NCBI RefSeq assembly: GCF_014138625.1
Contig: NZ_JACJHY010000009.1
Span: forward strand, 62,001 to 126,000
Length of the DNA stretch: 64,000 bases
Direction of reading: 5' to 3'
DNA from: Aminobacter ciceronei
GTDB lineage: Bacteria > Pseudomonadota > Alphaproteobacteria > Rhizobiales > Rhizobiaceae
Part shown: piece after piece, positions 7,783 to 23,986 of the stretch
How positions within the stretch are numbered: the stretch's first letter is position 1
Layout of the letters: the number at the start of each line of letters is the position of its first letter
Made by a program: the position numbers and the translations under genes
The notes under the pieces: generated by a model
Database searches by the model: none
Seen by the model: only the letters and a program-made list of their open reading frames with translations
What the model was told of the DNA's origin: nothing

Positions 7783-8628
7783 TTAGCTGGCCGAAATCTC
7801 GACATTGTCGATGAGACGCGTCTTGCCGAGGCGGGCCGCAACCAGCACTCGACCGTCCGTGTCGCGTTGCCATGGCGCGAGCGTGTCGCTTTGGCGCGCG
7901 GCGACATAGTCGACGGCATCGAATCCGGCTTCCAGCACGTCCTGCCGCGCGGCGGCCATCGTCACCGCCTCGTCGGCACCGCCTTCAAGGGCGGACGCTG
8001 CCTTGCGCAGGATCTTGTTCAATCGGCGCGCGATCTCGAGTTCCTGGGCGCTGAGATAGGCGTTGCGCGACGACATGGCGAGGCCCTCGCTGTCGCGGAT
8101 CGTCGGCGAGCCCACGATCTCCAGCGGCAGGTTCAGGTCCTGCACAAGCTTCTTCACCACGCAGAGCTGCTGGTAGTCCTTCTCGCCGAACACGGCGAGG
8201 TCGGGCTCCGACTGGATGAACAGCTTGCCGACGACGGTGGCGACGCCGTCGAAGAAAGCCGGCCGGAAATCGGTCTCGAGCCCGGCCGACGGGCCGCCGA
8301 CCGAGATCGAGGTGGCAAAGCCTTGCGGGTAGACCTCCTCGACACCGGGCGTGAAGGCGAGGTGGACGCCCGCCTTTTCCAGCCTGTCGAGGTCGAGCGC
8401 CAACTGGCGCGGATATTTGTCGAGGTCTTCGGTCGGCGCAAACTGGCGCGGATTGACGAAGATCGAGACGACGCAACGGTCGGCGCGCTCAAGGGCGGCA
8501 CGCATCAGCGAGACATGGCCGTCATGCAGCGCGCCCATTGTCGGCACCAGCGCGACCTTCAGTCCTTCGGCACGCCATGCCCGCACCTGGGCGCGGAGGG
8601 CGGCGATGGTTTCGACGACAATGGTCAT
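7783..8628 (-). CDS. panC: pantothenate synthetase
   Basis: A 281-residue cytoplasmic enzyme that joins pantoate and beta-alanine at the cost of ATP to AMP, the last step of vitamin B5 synthesis. Signature motifs are present: [10 protein letters not shown] (ATP-site HxGH-like), [17 protein letters not shown] and SSRNAYLS. Its ATG overlaps the stop of panB by 4 nt (ATGA), which shows translational coupling in a panB-panC operon. panD, the beta-alanine supplier, is not in the window. Confidence 0.97.
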
Positions 8629-9461
8629 GCCTTGTCCTTGTTCAGCGAAAACAGGTGCTCGGGGCCGGGAAAGGCGCGGCTGCGGACGTCGCGAGCGTAG
8701 GACGCGGCGGCGTCAGCGACGACATCGCGCAAATGCGCGTATTCCTTGACGAATTTGGGCACCCGGTCGACGGTCAGGCCAATGGCGTCATCGATGACCA
8801 GCACTTGGCCGTCGCAAGCGGGGCTGGCGCCGATGCCGACGGTGGGAATAGTGATGCGCCGGGTGATCTCGGCCGCAACCGGCTCGACGGTGCCTTCGAT
8901 GACGACCGAAAAGGCGCCCGCCGCCTCGACCGCCCTGGCATCGGCATAAAGCGCCTCGGCATTGGCCTCGGAGCGGCCCTTGATCTTGTAGCCGCCTTCC
9001 TTTTCGACCGACTGCGGCAACAGCCCGATATGGCCCATGACGGGAATGCCTGATGCGACGATGGCTGCGATCTGCGCGGCAATTGCCACGCCGCCTTCGA
9101 GCTTGACGGCATCGCAGCCGGTTTCGCGCATGATGCGGCCGGCGGAAGTGACGGCGTTTTCGACGCTGTCCTCGTAGCTGCCGGCGGGCATGTCGACGAC
9201 GACGCAAGCGCGGGACGCGCCGCGCATCACCGCCTGGCCGTGGGCGACCATCATGTCCATCGTCGCGCCCAGCGTGTTGGGATGGCCATGCAGCACCATC
9301 GCAACGCTGTCACCGACGAGCAGCAGATCGACATGCGGATCGAGCAGCCGGGCGATCGGATAGGTGTAAGCGGTGAGACAGACGATGGGCTCCTTGCCCT
9401 TGCGGGCCAGCAGAGCGGCGGGCGTGATGCGGCCGGCAGCCGCAGGCGCGTCGGAAGCCAT
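8625..9461 (-). CDS. panB: ketopantoate hydroxymethyltransferase
   Basis: A 278-residue enzyme that transfers a hydroxymethyl group from methylene-tetrahydrofolate to ketoisovalerate, the first committed step to pantothenate. Recognisable are [13 protein letters not shown], the metal-binding LLVGDS, the [10 protein letters not shown] segment, [10 protein letters not shown] and [14 protein letters not shown]. The ATG at 9461 follows GGGAGG and is chosen over longer readings whose upstream part lies in another gene's shadow. First gene of the panB-panC operon. A structured leader lies 32-77 nt upstream. Confidence 0.96.
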
Positions 9462-18659: not shown

Positions 18660-20336
18660 TCAGGGCGCGAGTATTGCCGCGACCGCCTTGCCGGCATCGA
18701 GCAGGCCAGCGCCGAAGAAATACGTCTTGCCCTTCGCCGGTTCGTTGTCGGCGTTCATCGGATCCTGCGTCAGCGGGGTCGTGCCCGGCTTGACAGAAGC
18801 ATTCTGATCGCAGGCGGCAATGAGGTTGGCTTTGGATGTCAGGCCGTCCAGTTTCGCCGCGGCGCCATGCTTTGCCTTGTGGGCACGGGCCGTGAGGGCA
18901 GCCACACCGGCGACGAGAGCCGCCGCGCCGGAGGTCCCGCCGAAGGTGGTGTAGTAACCGCCGCCGATGCCCTGGTTGTCGAGCGGCGGCAGGATCGACG
19001 AATAGGGGTCGGAGCCACCGGCATAACCGAAGGTGCCGGGCAGGTCGGTGGTCAGCAGCGAGAAATGGCTGTGCGGAATGACCTTGCCCTTGCCCGGATG
19101 GTAGTGGTGCTGGTCGACCATCGGGTTGGTCCGGTCGACGCGCAACTGGTGTCTGGTATAGATCTCGAAATCGTCCGACGGCGCGACAAGCGTCAGCTTG
19201 GCGCCATAGTTGCTGTAGCCGGAGCGGTAGCCATGTGGCGTCACCGCGCCGACGGCGATGATGCCGTTGTTGGCGGCGGCGAGATTGGCCGGGTAGATCA
19301 GCTGGCTCTCGCCGTCATTACCGGCCGCGCAGACCACGGGCACCTTGCGGCTGATGGCAACGATGAGCTTGGCGAGCGTGTTCCAGGCGATCTCGCGGTT
19401 GCCGGTCTTGCCGACCGCATGCGGCCTGATCTCGCTTGCCGGCGGCGTCGCCTCCTCAAGACGGGCGAACAGATCGGCACGCTCCCAGTTGGCACGGTCG
19501 TCGAGGTCTTGAGAGAGCTCCGGCTTGGCATTCAAAACGCTGCGCACCGGGTCGGGGATGCCGCGCGGCAACAGGATGACGTCGGCGCCATTGGCAAAGG
19601 CATAGAGGAGCGCTGCTATGAACTGGTCGGGCTGCTGCTCGAAGCCGGTCCGGATCGAGATCAGCCGCGACAGCGGGTCGACGCCGAAATAAGGCAGCAT
19701 GTTGCGGTTCGGGTTCGGCACGGCAGTGCCGTCGTCTGATATCAGCACATCGGGCAGGGCGATCGCCGGATTGGGCGCGACGCTTGCCGCCGGTTCGCCG
19801 ACGACGAGGCCAGCAACAGCGGTGCCGTGGCTGCCAAAGGTCTCGTCACCCTCGATCAGCGTGTGCAGCACGCCTTCCGAAGCTGCGAGCTCGGCGATCA
19901 GGCTGCCGAGATAGGCGGTCTCCGGGCCCGTCAGGTTGAGCGTGCCCAGCCCTGCGGTGGAGATGCCGGCGAAGAAGGCGGCCTTGACCTCGGGGTCATA
20001 GGGGCTGGCGGCAGGGGCGGCGACATATTTGGCGCCATAGGGGTGGCTCACCAGGTCGATCGACTTCACCGCGTCCAGCCGGCTCTTGAGGTTGGGGTGG
20101 CTACGGCTGACGCCGACGTCGATCAGCGCGACTGTCGCAGGAGCCGTCGCTGCCGGGAACGCCTCTGATATCGTATCCCAGACGGTGCCGTTGATTGTGG
20201 GCGAGGAGTAGTCGACCCCGCCACCCGGGGTCAGCGGCCCGAAGGTGGCATCGATCACGCCGAGTGCCGCAAGGTGCCAGAGGTAGTAGTAGGACTGAGG
20301 GTGCTGGAAGGAGAACTGTGTGTTGCCGTTTGCCAT
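18660..20336 (-). CDS. S8 family (subtilisin-like) serine protease, no signal peptide
   Basis: A 558-residue subtilase. The catalytic triad is D73 (ALIDVGVSRSHPN), H170 (FGSHGTAVAG) and S469 (GGTSGAAA), with the oxyanion asparagine N340 in AAGND. About 85 residues separate D and H, more than in simple subtilisins, so there are inserted loops. No signal peptide, membrane helix or propeptide is evident; the N-terminus begins MANGNTQFSF. It may act in the cytoplasm or leave by another route. It starts 9 nt after the PAP2 gene with a GAGGGG site that overlaps that stop, so the pair is translationally close. Third gene of an operon led by a SARP/TPR regulator. Confidence 0.9.
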   Translation of the reverse strand: MANGNTQFSFQHPQSYYYLWHLAALGVIDATFGPLTPGGGVDYSSPTINGTVWDTISEAFPAATAPATVALIDVGVSRSHPNLKSRLDAVKSIDLVSHPYGAKYVAAPAASPYDPEVKAAFFAGISTAGLGTLNLTGPETAYLGSLIAELAASEGVLHTLIEGDETFGSHGTAVAGLVVGEPAASVAPNPAIALPDVLISDDGTAVPNPNRNMLPYFGVDPLSRLISIRTGFEQQPDQFIAALLYAFANGADVILLPRGIPDPVRSVLNAKPELSQDLDDRANWERADLFARLEEATPPASEIRPHAVGKTGNREIAWNTLAKLIVAISRKVPVVCAAGNDGESQLIYPANLAAANNGIIAVGAVTPHGYRSGYSNYGAKLTLVAPSDDFEIYTRHQLRVDRTNPMVDQHHYHPGKGKVIPHSHFSLLTTDLPGTFGYAGGSDPYSSILPPLDNQGIGGGYYTTFGGTSGAAALVAGVAALTARAHKAKHGAAAKLDGLTSKANLIAACDQNASVKPGTTPLTQDPMNADNEPAKGKTYFFGAGLLDAGKAVAAILAP

Positions 20337-20345
20337 GATCGCCCC

Positions 20346-21323
20346 TCAGATCCATTCGCGCTGTGCGGCGAGATAGTTCGCCATGAAGGCGTCACGCAGA
20401 TATGGCTGGAAGCGCTGTGCCAGCGCCCGGCCGCCATTGGTGTCGCTGGGATAGTGCAGGCCTGCCCATTCGCGGTTTTCCGCGACTTTGCGGGCAATGC
20501 GCGACAGCTCCTCCGTCGCCGGGTGCTCCGGCAGGATGGCGTTGAAGGCAAAGGCAATCGAGTGGCACTGGAACGAGTGGTTGCTCGGATAGGCCTGGTG
20601 CGCTGGATTGGGCAGCATGAGCCGCAGGCGTGGCTCGACCTGGTTGGGCCTGGTGCGGTTGAATTTTGCCTTGTAGATCAGCCCGACATATTCGCAGGCC
20701 GTCAGGATCGACTGGAACAGGCCCTCGGTCTGGTCGAAGCCGCTGATGCCGTCGATGCCCAGCGGCTTGGTGAAGTCGGAGACGTCAAGCGTCGCCTCGC
20801 GCTCGATGTCGTCCTTGCGACGCGAGCGTTCGCGGTCACGGGCCTGGAGCGAAAGCATGACTGTCGTTTCGAGACGGGTGACGTCTGGGCCGGGCGGCAG
20901 CGGAATGTCGAGCTGCTCCCAGGTGAATTTGCGCGCTGCCGTGAACGCATGTGGCGAGGGCGACGTGTGCAGACGCCTGAGCTCGAAGGCCGGGATCAGG
21001 CTTGCCTGCGATCCAGTGCCTGATCCCGATTGAAGAGCGCTGCCCTTGTTCTTGTTTTTGTTCTTGTTTTTATTCTTGTTCTTGTTGAGCGAGGCCTTGT
21101 TGAGCACGCCGGCGCTCATGACGGCACTGGCGACTCCGGCCGACATCACCATCGCCTCGGCGCCGGAGGCGAGTGTGGTTTCCAACACGATCGGAGGCCG
21201 ATCCGTGGCCGCGCAAGGCAGCACGTCGTCGCCGGCGATCTTGAAGCGGTACTGATCGAGAAAGTGCGAAAAGCCGCCCTCAGCAGGCGCGGAACTGTCG
21301 TTGCCAGACACTGAATTCCCCAT
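20346..21323 (-). CDS. PAP2/vanadium-haloperoxidase-like phosphatase
   Basis: A 325-residue protein of the PAP2/haloperoxidase superfamily. The vanadate/phosphate motifs are K218-x6-R225-P226 (KAKFNRTRP), PSNH-S (246-250, where PSGH is usual) and R284-x5-H290-x3-D294. It has no transmembrane helices, unlike lipid phosphatases, which favours the soluble haloperoxidase-like group. Halide oxidation and plain phosphatase activity cannot be told apart from sequence. Residues 80-93 are seven Asn-Lys repeats inside a low-complexity stretch between the N-terminal segment and the domain. It lies 36 nt after the regulator gene and 9 nt before the subtilase gene. Confidence 0.82.
   Translation of the reverse strand: MGNSVSGNDSSAPAEGGFSHFLDQYRFKIAGDDVLPCAATDRPPIVLETTLASGAEAMVMSAGVASAVMSAGVLNKASLNKNKNKNKNKNKNKGSALQSGSGTGSQASLIPAFELRRLHTSPSPHAFTAARKFTWEQLDIPLPPGPDVTRLETTVMLSLQARDRERSRRKDDIEREATLDVSDFTKPLGIDGISGFDQTEGLFQSILTACEYVGLIYKAKFNRTRPNQVEPRLRLMLPNPAHQAYPSNHSFQCHSIAFAFNAILPEHPATEELSRIARKVAENREWAGLHYPSDTNGGRALAQRFQPYLRDAFMANYLAAQREWI
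21045..21086 (-). repeat. in-frame Asn-Lys microsatellite-like repeat
   Basis: Seven consecutive AAY-AAR codon pairs encode (Asn-Lys)7 inside the PAP2-like gene. On the plus strand it reads as a run of TTCTTG/TTTTTG hexamers. The A+T content is far above that of the gene around it. Change by whole 6-nt units would keep the frame and alter only linker length. Confidence 0.85.
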
Positions 21324-21359
21324 TGAATTGATCGAAATGTGCGGTGCTCGGCGCGTCCG

Positions 21360-23147
21360 TCATGTTTTTTTGACACCGGCCTTGATCAGACCGGAGATCA
21401 GATTGGCGCCGCCCTCGGTGCGCATGATTGGATAGCGGGCGTCGATCAGCGAGCTGATCGAGAAATTGGGTTCGACGACGTTCAGCCGGTCGAGCAGCGA
21501 GCGGGCGGCGCGGATGTCGCCGAGCTGGGCGTGGCTCGCCACGAGATAACGCAGCAGCGAATTGAAATCGGGCCGCTCGCGTAGCGCCTGCTCGCCGGCT
21601 TCGATGGCGACGCGATGATTGCCGGCGAGCGTGGCGTTGATCAGCCGCGAGGTGTCGAAATAGTAGCGATAGGGGCTGTAGGCTCCGAGATGACGCGCCC
21701 AGTTGGCGAGGCTGAGCCCTTTGTCCGGCTGGCCGGCATAGGCATGCAGCATCGAATAGAGGTCCCAGCCGAGCACCTGGGTCGGGTTGGCGCGGATGGC
21801 GCGCTCGAACAGGCCCGATGCGTAGTCGTACTCGCCGAACAGGAACGAATGCACATGGCCGACGAGCGCCAGGGTGACCGAATTGCTGGAATCGAGTTCC
21901 AGCGCCTTGCGGGCGTAATGCTGAGCCTGCTCGATGGCCACGGCAGAATCGGAGAAACGCTGGCCGACCTGGAAAGTCATCAGGAAGGCGAGCCAGGCAT
22001 AGGCCTGCGACGACGGCCGCTGGGCGATGATGCGCCGGAGCGACGCCTCGGACATGACTAGGTCGTTGCGCGACAGCCGGAACATGGCGTTGACGGCGGC
22101 ATAGAGGCTCTCGGCCTCGACGACGTCGTCGGTCTGTTCGGAGCGCGCAATGAAATATTTGCGCAACTCGTCCATCGCCTCGTTGATGAGCTGGTGCGCC
22201 GCCGAGGTTTCGCCTGCCTCGATCGCGCGCCGTTCAAGCGTGGCGCCGCCCATCCACAGCAGGCTGCGGTCGGCGGTGCGATGGACACTGACGCTGATAT
22301 AGGCCTGGTGGGCCGAAAAGCGGTAGCGGACCTGAATCGCCAGCGCCACCGAATCGAACGCCGTTTCCGGCTCCTGCGTCGGCGACAGATCCGGCCGCGA
22401 CAGGTCGGAGACGGTCAGTTCGCCGCCTTCGAGCAGCGACCGCACCAAGAGTTCGGAAAACATGTCGGGCAGCGATTCTGCCCCGAAGGCATCGCCTGAG
22501 ATCGCCGGCGGCAGCAGCGCCACCGACCAGCCGGTCCGGCTCCCGGTCAGCGGCAGCGACTTGCGGTTGCCGCCGTCGGAGGAATTCGGTCCCGATTTCT
22601 GTGCCTGGGCCGGGATGAGGCCGTTGCTGCGCCTGTCCTTGGGGCTGACGTCGCGCTGGCCGAGCGCATTTTCGAGCCGGCCCTGCCAGACCTGCCGCTC
22701 GAGCATCAGCCATTCCTCGAATTCGGGGTCGCCGATGTCGAGGCCTTCGAGCAGCTCCGGCCAGGATTCGAGCTCGACTTCGCTGGGCACGGATTGGCGC
22801 GACGGGTCGAGCAACTGCAGCGCGTCGACCGACACGCGGTTGAGGTCGAGCGAGATGGTGTGGTTGTCGGAAATGATGATGCTGTCGGCGATCGGGCCGA
22901 GCGATTTGCGGACGTCGACGAGGGCCTGTCTCAGGCTGGCTGCGGCCTGCTCCTCGCCGCGGTCGCTCCATAGCTTGTCGCGCAGCCAGATACGCGAGCG
23001 GGCACCGCGTGGAGCAAGTGCCAGCATGGCCACCAGCGCGCGCGACTTCTGCGCCTTGGGCGTGCACGACGCGCCGGCTGCGTCGGTGACGGCCAGCGCC
23101 CCGAACAGGTAGATATTGCAAAGCGTACTGGCGTCTTCACCAGCCAT
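21360..23147 (-). CDS. SARP/BTAD-type winged-helix regulator with TPR domain
   Basis: A 595-residue predicted transcription factor. Residues 10-75 form an OmpR/SARP-type winged helix (IYLFGALAV, then KAQKSRALVAMLAL and EQAAASLRQALVDVRKSLG). A BTAD-like helical segment, a long middle region and C-terminal TPR-like helices (about 380-580) follow. The ATG at 23147, preceded by GAAGG, is preferred because it places the winged helix at the N-terminus. Upstream in-frame starts would add about 58 unconvincing residues. It heads an operon with the PAP2-like and subtilase genes, so it probably controls them and perhaps itself. Its signal is unknown. Confidence 0.82.
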   Translation of the reverse strand: MAGEDASTLCNIYLFGALAVTDAAGASCTPKAQKSRALVAMLALAPRGARSRIWLRDKLWSDRGEEQAAASLRQALVDVRKSLGPIADSIIISDNHTISLDLNRVSVDALQLLDPSRQSVPSEVELESWPELLEGLDIGDPEFEEWLMLERQVWQGRLENALGQRDVSPKDRRSNGLIPAQAQKSGPNSSDGGNRKSLPLTGSRTGWSVALLPPAISGDAFGAESLPDMFSELLVRSLLEGGELTVSDLSRPDLSPTQEPETAFDSVALAIQVRYRFSAHQAYISVSVHRTADRSLLWMGGATLERRAIEAGETSAAHQLINEAMDELRKYFIARSEQTDDVVEAESLYAAVNAMFRLSRNDLVMSEASLRRIIAQRPSSQAYAWLAFLMTFQVGQRFSDSAVAIEQAQHYARKALELDSSNSVTLALVGHVHSFLFGEYDYASGLFERAIRANPTQVLGWDLYSMLHAYAGQPDKGLSLANWARHLGAYSPYRYYFDTSRLINATLAGNHRVAIEAGEQALRERPDFNSLLRYLVASHAQLGDIRAARSLLDRLNVVEPNFSISSLIDARYPIMRTEGGANLISGLIKAGVKKT

Positions 23148-23533
23148 CGTGCGGACCTTCGCTGCAGGTCGTCCATGCCCCTGAAGAGCGTACCACAGGT
23201 CGAATCGCCTGTGGTCCTCGCAACTTGCATCGGGAGCATACAACGACATTCCGGCAAGTGCGCGTGCTTGTATGCTTCTGGCACCGGGCAAAACCTGCAG
23301 CATTCCAGCGTTCCTCACCACTCTTGCCGGAGCTGATTCCGGCCTGATTTCGGAAGGACGTTAGGGGAGGCGGGGTGATTGCGGCGTGAGTGAAACGTCA
23401 AAACAGCCGTGAAATGCAGATTTGACGGCCCATCAGATGGGGCCCATGTTCCTCACGCGCCAAGTGTTTCGGCAATCGCCTCGGTGACAGCGACGCGCAG
23501 ATCGTGCGCGGTCGCGTCGCCAGTCGTGAAGGT
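23148..23533. other. promoter region of the SARP operon, no gene seen
   Basis: No convincing gene. The region contains the inverted repeat at 23236-23275 (listed separately) and CCACAGG/CCTGTGG near 23199-23220, both upstream of the regulator start. The part above about 23400 is the downstream region of the small gene at 23534. Confidence 0.45.
23236..23275 (-). promoter_or_regulatory. inverted repeat upstream of SARP regulator
   Basis: GCATACAA (23236-23243) is perfectly complementary to TTGTATGC (23268-23275), 24 nt apart. It lies about 90-130 nt upstream of the regulator start. The arms could be two half-sites of a DNA-binding protein, possibly the regulator itself. This is inference. Confidence 0.35.
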
Positions 23534-23728
23534 TCAGCGTCCCGACGAGCCGTTGCTGCGGCGGGGGCCGGCGAGTTCCCTGCCAAGCGCCAACGCTTCC
23601 TGCAGGTCGGTTGCGTATTTGGCCGTATCTTCGAGGCCGCCGAAATAATTGAGCCGGATGGTTTCACCTCGCTTGCTCATGACCACGCCGATGCTCCGCA
23701 GGCTCTCACGCACATCAGAAAAACGCAT
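23534..23728 (-). CDS. small hypothetical protein (64 aa)
   Basis: A short protein starting at the ATG at 23728 with a GGAGA site 8 nt upstream. The sequence looks like a genuine compact domain: a helical start (MRFSDVRESLRSIGVVMSK), then a strand with NYFGGLEDTAKYATD and a helix with QEALALGRELA. I remember similar unnamed small proteins in rhizobia but cannot give a function. It stands alone between the SARP operon promoter and glsA. Confidence 0.6.
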   Translation of the reverse strand: MRFSDVRESLRSIGVVMSKRGETIRLNYFGGLEDTAKYATDLQEALALGRELAGPRRSNGSSGR

Positions 23729-23986
23729 ATCGCAACGTCTCCGTTTGGTGGGTTGAACGAACATTAGAGGTTGCTTGTAACAGTGCCGTGTTGACGCAAC
23801 GTGAGGGATACGTGAATCGCCGCTACGAAAGTTTCGCTTTCGGCACATCTTTCGACGATTCGGCGGCCGCCAGCCCACAAAGCGTCAGGGTTGTGCCGCT
23901 CTGTGATGACCAGGGGATGGGTGGCGTCGCGCGCGACTTGATGTAGAACGGCCTGCCGGTTCGAGCCGGTCGAAGCAGGAAGTGTC

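Follow-up and report, generated by a model that had tools for sequence, protein, structure and literature searches.

The three adjacent genes at positions 18660-23147 of a stretch of 64,000 nucleotides from Aminobacter ciceronei, in the following called the window, represent one instance of a conserved module with three parts, which consists of a TPR regulator, a PAP2 enzyme equipped with a repeat tail, and a protease. All three genes lie on the minus strand with intergenic gaps of 36 and 9 nt, as a previous sequence-only reading of the window had stated. The regulator gene (21360-23147, 595 residues) is followed by the gene of a PAP2 enzyme resembling class A acid phosphatases (20346-21323, 325 residues) and by the gene of an apparently leaderless subtilase of family S8 (18660-20336, 558 residues), whose catalytic triad is D73/H170/S469. 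A short perfect tandem repeat, which had gone unremarked in the earlier reading, is the defining feature of the PAP2 family: In the window it is (Asn-Lys)7, encoded at 21045-21086 of the minus strand by mixed AAC/AAT and AAG/AAA codons and corresponding to residues 80-93 of the PAP2 protein. As a tentative interpretation, the module may be an intracellular switch in which the tail serves as a handle that links phosphatase, TPR sensor, and protease.

Co-occurrence of regulator, PAP2 enzyme and protease

The comparison is based on 120 loci, namely the window, L030-L032, and L063-L178, which mostly stem from Alpha- and Betaproteobacteria. Repeat-free PAP2 domains were aligned (A1) and used as a search profile; a search of GTDB contigs with a subset of A1 gave 394 relatives, and the best 80 of these 394 were taken as L099-L178. 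Note that L099, L125, and L153 originate from the same genomes as L074, L081, and L083; they are counted among the 120 loci and were excluded from the tree and from the pair tests. The analyses of unit composition, codon mismatch, and covariation were made without L064 and L098. One further locus, L162, is labelled as an Anaerolineae metagenome-assembled genome (Chloroflexota) and possesses the module; mis-binning or transfer is possible in this case.

Clustering of 1416 neighbouring genes assembled one regulator cluster represented in 112 loci and subtilases represented in 96 and 8 loci. According to profile searches, all 118 informative loci have a TPR regulator in the vicinity of the PAP2 gene (L133 and L171 are truncated by the end of a contig), and 114 of the 120 loci possess a subtilase; a strict position filter marks both neighbours in 79 of 120 cases, the other 41 having been placed by eye. 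The arrangement deviates in few loci: The regulator gene is divergently oriented in 8 of them and lies beyond the subtilase in L097, and the subtilase is encoded on the opposite strand in 3. The search seeds had been picked for a regulator neighbour; a test confined to 95 distinct non-seed loci among L081-L178 gave 93/93 for the regulator, 92/95 for the subtilase, and 93/95 for the repeat. The reciprocal search of 297 genomes with a profile of Csp-like subtilases (A7), one of the two subtilase types described below, found 19 places scoring at least 300 bits, 17 of which adjoin a PAP2 match. The remaining two are G199, where the subtilase lies on a separate contig of a fragmentary genome (the PAP2 contig comprises 3 kb), and G122, which reaches the contig end. 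None of the seven weaker subtilase matches (75-151 bits) stands beside a PAP2 match of the family. Chance adjacency is ruled out by the neighbour clustering, the profile counts, and the reciprocal subtilase and PAP2 searches. The term module, which the sequence-only reading had used, is appropriate, as the three genes occur together almost without exception in the loci examined; the check across the order that this reading had proposed found the homologues regularly adjacent elsewhere, which favours a real module.

A first order-wide search detected a PAP2 match in 27 of 297 genomes, and a matching regulator was found within ~1.5 kb of the PAP2 gene in 19 of the 28 loci from this search (the window's own locus excluded). 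The PAP2 profile scores at least 200 bits at 25 places in 22 of the 297 genomes; the partners at these places are 18 Csp-like subtilases (including G199), 4 window-type subtilases, and 1 glutamic peptidase, and for 2 places no protease was found. Absences in the order-wide searches are soft, because few candidates were scored per genome (at most 3 for the subtilase and at most 7 for PAP2). The phylum search, which comprised 398 genomes, gave a PAP2 match in 66 (1e-10), with family members standing apart at 150 bits or more. Among the records of a plasmid collection, 76 match the PAP2 protein and 71 the subtilase, most of them from Rhizobium, and the gene order regulator, PAP2, S8 was seen in all five annotated plasmid regions opened.

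Within the genus Aminobacter, the PAP2 gene occurs in nine of ten genomes, and the window genome contains a single match to the window's PAP2 protein. In the five relatives whose region was fetched, the location of the PAP2 gene is unchanged, and G660 has no trio at this site. Eight of the nine PAP2 proteins of the genus keep (NK)7 or (NK)8, encoded by differing codons. With respect to the earlier view of an accessory module among core genes, the trio is patchy in the order and, in Rhizobium, often plasmid-borne; in the window's own genus, the PAP2 gene is nearly core. A search of the PADLOC anti-phage library with the window trio gave nothing beyond a 13.7-bit subtilase match.

A tandem repeat kept uniform as protein

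A perfect repeat of at least 8 residues and at least 3 copies is present in 118 of the 120 loci, and the two misses are contig-end loci. Domains without the repeat served as search queries. The repeat is nearly always N-terminal: Besides (NK)7 of the window, arrays such as (GGA)n, (GGV)n, (LNG)n, (GNQ)n, and (TAM)n were found, and in 71 of the 78 members of the large group the onset is 1-13 residues from the start, if the nearest upstream ATG is taken as start; in the window, it is residue 80. Exceptions are L064, which possesses a C-terminal (SL)4 alone, and L098, whose repeat is irregular. Four members fetched later all have a repeat as well, namely (GGF)13, (LGS)14, (GGI)13, and (SGGE)6. 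In a control with a threshold of at least 12 residues, repeats were detected in 100 of 104 PAP2 genes, compared with 2 of 1093 other neighbours; the values for regulators and subtilases were 0/115 and 1/104, respectively. All 16 distinct PAP2 homologues with lower scores lack a repeat (0/16), and none of these has a matching regulator within ~1.5 kb.

The 118 arrays are built from 42 units (rotations collapsed) with a length of 2-6 residues; the period is 3 in 104 arrays, Gly occurs in 104, and Cys and Pro occur in no unit. Counting codon-units gave 852 distinct ones, where 833 are expected under random draw from the local codon usage, and the base mismatch between units is 2.4% at codon positions 1 and 2 and 64% at position 3 (113 arrays; 81 without imperfect extension). 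The synonymous codons are randomised and the amino acids are fixed; therefore, it is the protein on which selection acts. A quick method counted at least 53 changes of the unit on a tree of 117 rows, which has several long branches. Whole arrays were switched between close pairs, as exemplified by (GGV)12 versus (GGI)12 at 91% domain identity and by (GGF)12 versus (GGL)11 at 88%. Copy number differs in 11 of 13 same-unit pairs that are more than 90% identical, and local DNA duplication is visible in a few arrays. Both of the latter observations would be compatible with a DNA microsatellite or a slippage artefact in an ordinary local operon; as a general explanation this is refuted by the randomised codons and the uniform protein, and with a repeat in nearly every member and a conserved trio we regard it as scarcely credible. 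The array is dynamic as DNA, yet kept uniform as protein. Several paralogues per genome were observed as well: G286, G382, G598, G395, and G245 hold at least two members each, and within each of these genomes the members have different units (MT, GGV, and NGL in G286).

A tail with these properties might serve self-assembly. In this case, identical units would stack or phase-separate homotypically and cluster the phosphatase, and the protease would be a separate effector or a disassembler. Self-assembly would account for a uniformity that is kept while the identity of the unit is free, for the lack of Pro and Cys in the unit, and for members that have repeats and no subtilase; the different units in each of the five multi-member genomes point in the same direction, a pattern which is not beyond chance given so few genomes. 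However, polar or charged units (NK, NR, DAR, GNQ, SGGE) and hydrophobic ones (GGF) would be unlikely to assemble alike, and the AlphaFold model of L120 (predicted local distance difference test, pLDDT, 84) predicts residues 1-52, including the repeat, to be disordered. On the whole, we consider self-assembly to be rather unlikely.

Properties of enzyme, regulator and protease

In a Pfam search, the window's PAP2 protein scores 25.6 bits, which is slightly below the cut-off of 27.2, and L099 and L120 reach 36.7 and 50.4 bits. The active-site pattern K(x6)RP...PSGH...R(x5)H(x3)D is maintained in the family: The residues K, R, H, R, H, and D are kept in 120/120 loci, and the Gly of PSGH is replaced by Asn in 7/120 (window included) and by Ala in 4/120. 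A His located 7 residues ahead of the PSGH His, which we take to be of significance in bromoperoxidases, was found in 118/120. For the AlphaFold models of the window protein and of L120, class A acid phosphatases rank first and haloperoxidases are weaker; the structure search gave a best E value of 2e-5 for 7f17 (acid phosphatase), compared with 0.02 for 4usz (haloperoxidase). Judged from these models, the PAP2 fold is nearest to class A acid phosphatases; the catalytic residues are intact. The sequence-only reading had named the protein PAP2/haloperoxidase-like; the phosphatase residues speak for the first half of this name (with a Pfam score just under the cut-off), whereas the second half is unsupported, because the PDB matches by sequence and by fold are nearer to class A acid phosphatases. 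Haloperoxidase as the nearer identity is ruled out on the same grounds, and the structure prediction that had been recommended with a view to a PAP2 active site fitting vanadate returned acid phosphatases as best matches for both models.

With respect to localisation, a simple and crude hydropathy test, applied to the N-terminal 45 residues of each of 63 PAP2 proteins, found no signal-like hydrophobic segment; a segment resembling a secretion signal was found in 15 of 16 control PAP2 homologues, which were scanned over a longer stretch. The most hydrophobic 12 residues preceding the domain of the window's PAP2 protein are 58-69, which fall below the same threshold. Likewise, no strongly hydrophobic start was seen in 38 subtilases by this crude test. 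The statement that neither window enzyme has an evident signal peptide agrees with these data, as no strongly hydrophobic 12-residue stretch was detected near either start with this approximate method. Two further characteristics were noticed in PAP2 proteins of the window type: They share a leader-like FLxxY[KR]FK stretch and an Ala/Val/Met-rich segment that directly precedes the repeat; both lie within residues 19-73 in the window (21105-21269 on the minus strand) and were also noticed in the PAP2 N-termini of L030 and L032.

The regulator of the window may start at an alternative GTG at 23321, which would give 653 residues. The sole domain reported by Pfam is TPR_19 (26.6 bits), and the TPR region is C-terminal. 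The earlier designation as a winged-helix/SARP TPR regulator is confirmed with respect to the TPR part, and the putative SARP-type winged helix is based on motif reading and on the NCBI name of the relatives, 'SARP family transcriptional regulator'. In the 120 loci, the regulators have the TPR region in common and differ in their N-termini, which motif rules assigned to 78 cyclase-type, 26 SARP-type, and 10 OmpR-type cases, with 4 unclassified and 2 missing. Inspection by eye identified the four unclassified ones as three cyclases, one of them with a broken N-terminus, and one regulator cut by a contig end. Applied to 53 regulators, Pfam reported Guanylate_cyc in 22, Trans_reg_C in 4, and BTAD in 2. 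According to these motif and domain assignments, the N-terminal output domain is predicted to be a winged helix, of either the SARP or the OmpR type, or else a nucleotide-cyclase domain of class III.

The constant proximity of a TPR regulator bears on another explanation, namely that the tail is a tandem peptide precursor operating in Proteobacteria. A dedicated protease would cut the tail into identical peptides of 2-6 residues, and the adjacent TPR regulator would be their receptor, acting via DNA binding or via a cyclic nucleotide. A TPR receptor, a repeated pro-peptide, and a protease constitute the cast of RRNPP quorum sensing in Gram-positive bacteria; moreover, perfect copies are needed for a single signal, and hypervariability would fit as well. 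If this explanation were true, the rapid switching of the unit would make the signal specific to a lineage. The TPR identity of regulators is lower for different-unit pairs in four of five identity bins and higher in one, the pairs not being independent. In close pairs with the same regulator type, differing units go along with a TPR identity that is lower by 0.06 after correction for the identity of PAP2 and subtilase (160 same-unit versus 37 different-unit pairs, which are not independent either). However, within Microvirga (GGV/GGI) the TPR identity of same-unit and different-unit pairs is about equal; because the difference vanishes there, the covariation of unit and regulator is confounded by kinship. 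Units of just 2-6 residues and the lack of a signal-peptide-like start in the PAP2 proteins, as judged by simple hydropathy, are further arguments against a peptide precursor, which we deem clearly unlikely.

The protease of the window is a well-supported subtilase (Pfam Peptidase_S8, 70.6 bits at a cut-off of 21.8), and the triad D73, H170, and S469 is invariant among seven window-type relatives, in agreement with the intact triad noted previously. In the family as a whole, D, H, and S are invariant in 38/38 aligned subtilases, 33/38 of which match the S8 family of Pfam. The sequences fall into two types, which are the Csp-like and the window-type subtilases, and the solved structures nearest to the family profile are the clostridial Csp germination proteases. 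In L066, an unrelated protease replaces the subtilase: A glutamic peptidase (Peptidase_A4, 82.6 bits, 8283-9350 of this locus), in which no signal peptide is visible by eye, is encoded beside a PAP2 protein with an (AGN)6 tail. Non-subtilase proteases were sought by eye and, in one locus, with Pfam.

An aKG-HExxH hydroxylase-family protein (77 bits, cut-off 40) and a ThiF protein are encoded after the trio in those annotated regions of Rhizobium that were opened and in Sinorhizobium sp. B11. The HEXXH-family gene matches 68 plasmid records, and in the regions opened annotated copies lie inside the operon; trio-linked loci of this family are L030:9994-12377, L032:9949-12677, L080, L206, L207, L208, and L209. 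According to PMC12636437, enzymes of the aKG-HExxH type can hydroxylate runs of Gln, and therefore the Asn of (NK)n suggests itself as a substrate. The repeat would then be the core peptide of a system akin to ribosomally synthesized and post-translationally modified peptides, which is modified by the neighbouring HEXXH and ThiF enzymes in Rhizobium. We consider such a system very improbable, and hydroxylation of the repeat was rejected: The HExxH motif is broken in 6/7 aligned copies (intact in 1/7), and a search of the window genome for the HExxH-family gene showed its absence. The degenerate motif suggests that these copies may have retained a non-catalytic role.

Between the trio and a glutaminase gene, the window contains a small open reading frame of ~90 residues (23537-23806, minus strand), which gave no match in a Pfam search. 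It is kept in 6/6 relatives checked (~70-89% identity), even where the trio is missing.

A possible intracellular switch and its relation to known systems

The reading that we tentatively prefer, that of an intracellular switch, draws on three features of the module. The tail is uniform yet free in sequence, which points to an assembly tail or to a handle that tolerates different sequences; the interchangeability of protease types suggests that proteolysis itself matters; and the TPR partner, which is always present, suggests a sensor reading the tail or the enzyme. In such a switch, the Pro- and Cys-free tail would tie the phosphatase to the TPR sensor by docking or by self-association, with uniformity being required and not one particular sequence. 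The protease would clip the tail or the tail's partners and thus alter the state of the phosphatase, and the regulator might pass this state to transcription, either directly or via a cyclic nucleotide. The single case of G662, where the repeat is eroded and the site no longer contains the regulator gene while the frame of the subtilase is intact, fits a functional tie of regulator and repeat. The disorder predicted for the tail of L120 also speaks for the switch, as does, with the confounding by kinship described above, the somewhat lower TPR identity of regulators in four of five bins when units differ.

Several observations weigh against the switch. The erosion in G662 may be part of a general decay, as a catalytic Arg was lost too. 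L072, L094, L096, and L098 have no detected subtilase and yet keep their repeats; therefore, the tail must be more than a substrate of the protease. In L064, for which no subtilase was found either, the sole repeat is the (SL)4 at the C-terminus. In the AlphaFold model of the window protein (pLDDT 72), the repeat has pLDDT values of 64-77 and is partly strand, not clearly disordered. In addition, the divergence of the subtilases is not raised when units differ, the trend being opposite, and the Microvirga pairs mentioned above do not reveal an adaptation of the TPR region to the unit.

It is very unusual for selection to keep a segment uniform while its sequence is repeatedly replaced. As this segment is tied to a fixed operon of sensor, enzyme, and protease in many bacteria, legume symbionts included, its purpose can be tested directly, and it would represent either a novel type of peptide signal or a new way of coupling proteolysis to transcription or to second messengers. 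Among the matches listed in the openly licensed PubMed Central literature, neither the trio nor the repeat family is described; within this scope, we regard the trio with its repeat-tailed PAP2 protein as an apparently undescribed system.

Its components resemble proteins of several known systems. Class A non-specific acid phosphatases (PhoN/PhoC; PDB 7f17, 1d2t, 2a96) share the fold and the K..RP/PSGH/R..H..D site and are the best PDB matches by sequence and by fold. In contrast to these, the window family has a repeat tail, no signal-like segment, and a fixed operon, whereas the 16 control homologues are repeat-less and 15 of them signal-like. Vanadium haloperoxidases belong to the same superfamily, and a further similarity is the His 7 positions ahead of the PSGH His (118/120), but their structural match is weaker. 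Among proteases, the clostridial Csp germination proteases CspB and CspC are the best PDB profile matches of the family subtilases. CspB activates a zymogen by cutting the N-terminal extension of that zymogen. The operon and the bacteria differ from the clostridial case, and the window's own subtilase is of the other S8 type; it matches the model of the mycobacterial mycosins at 62.7 bits, the cut-off of this model being 278.75.

With respect to the repeat, RRNPP/RRNPPA peptide quorum sensing, whose receptors are TPR proteins, is similar in that a protease and a stretch of repeated peptides are found next to a TPR regulator. Tandem pheromones and maturation by proteases are described for RRNPP-type systems in PMC11343458. 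Here, however, the bacteria are Proteobacteria, the repeat is fused to an enzyme, and no export signal was seen. A different parallel is offered by the PE_PGRS proteins of mycobacteria, in which GGA/GGX repeats are attached to other domains; compared with these, the units of the trio family vary far beyond GGX.

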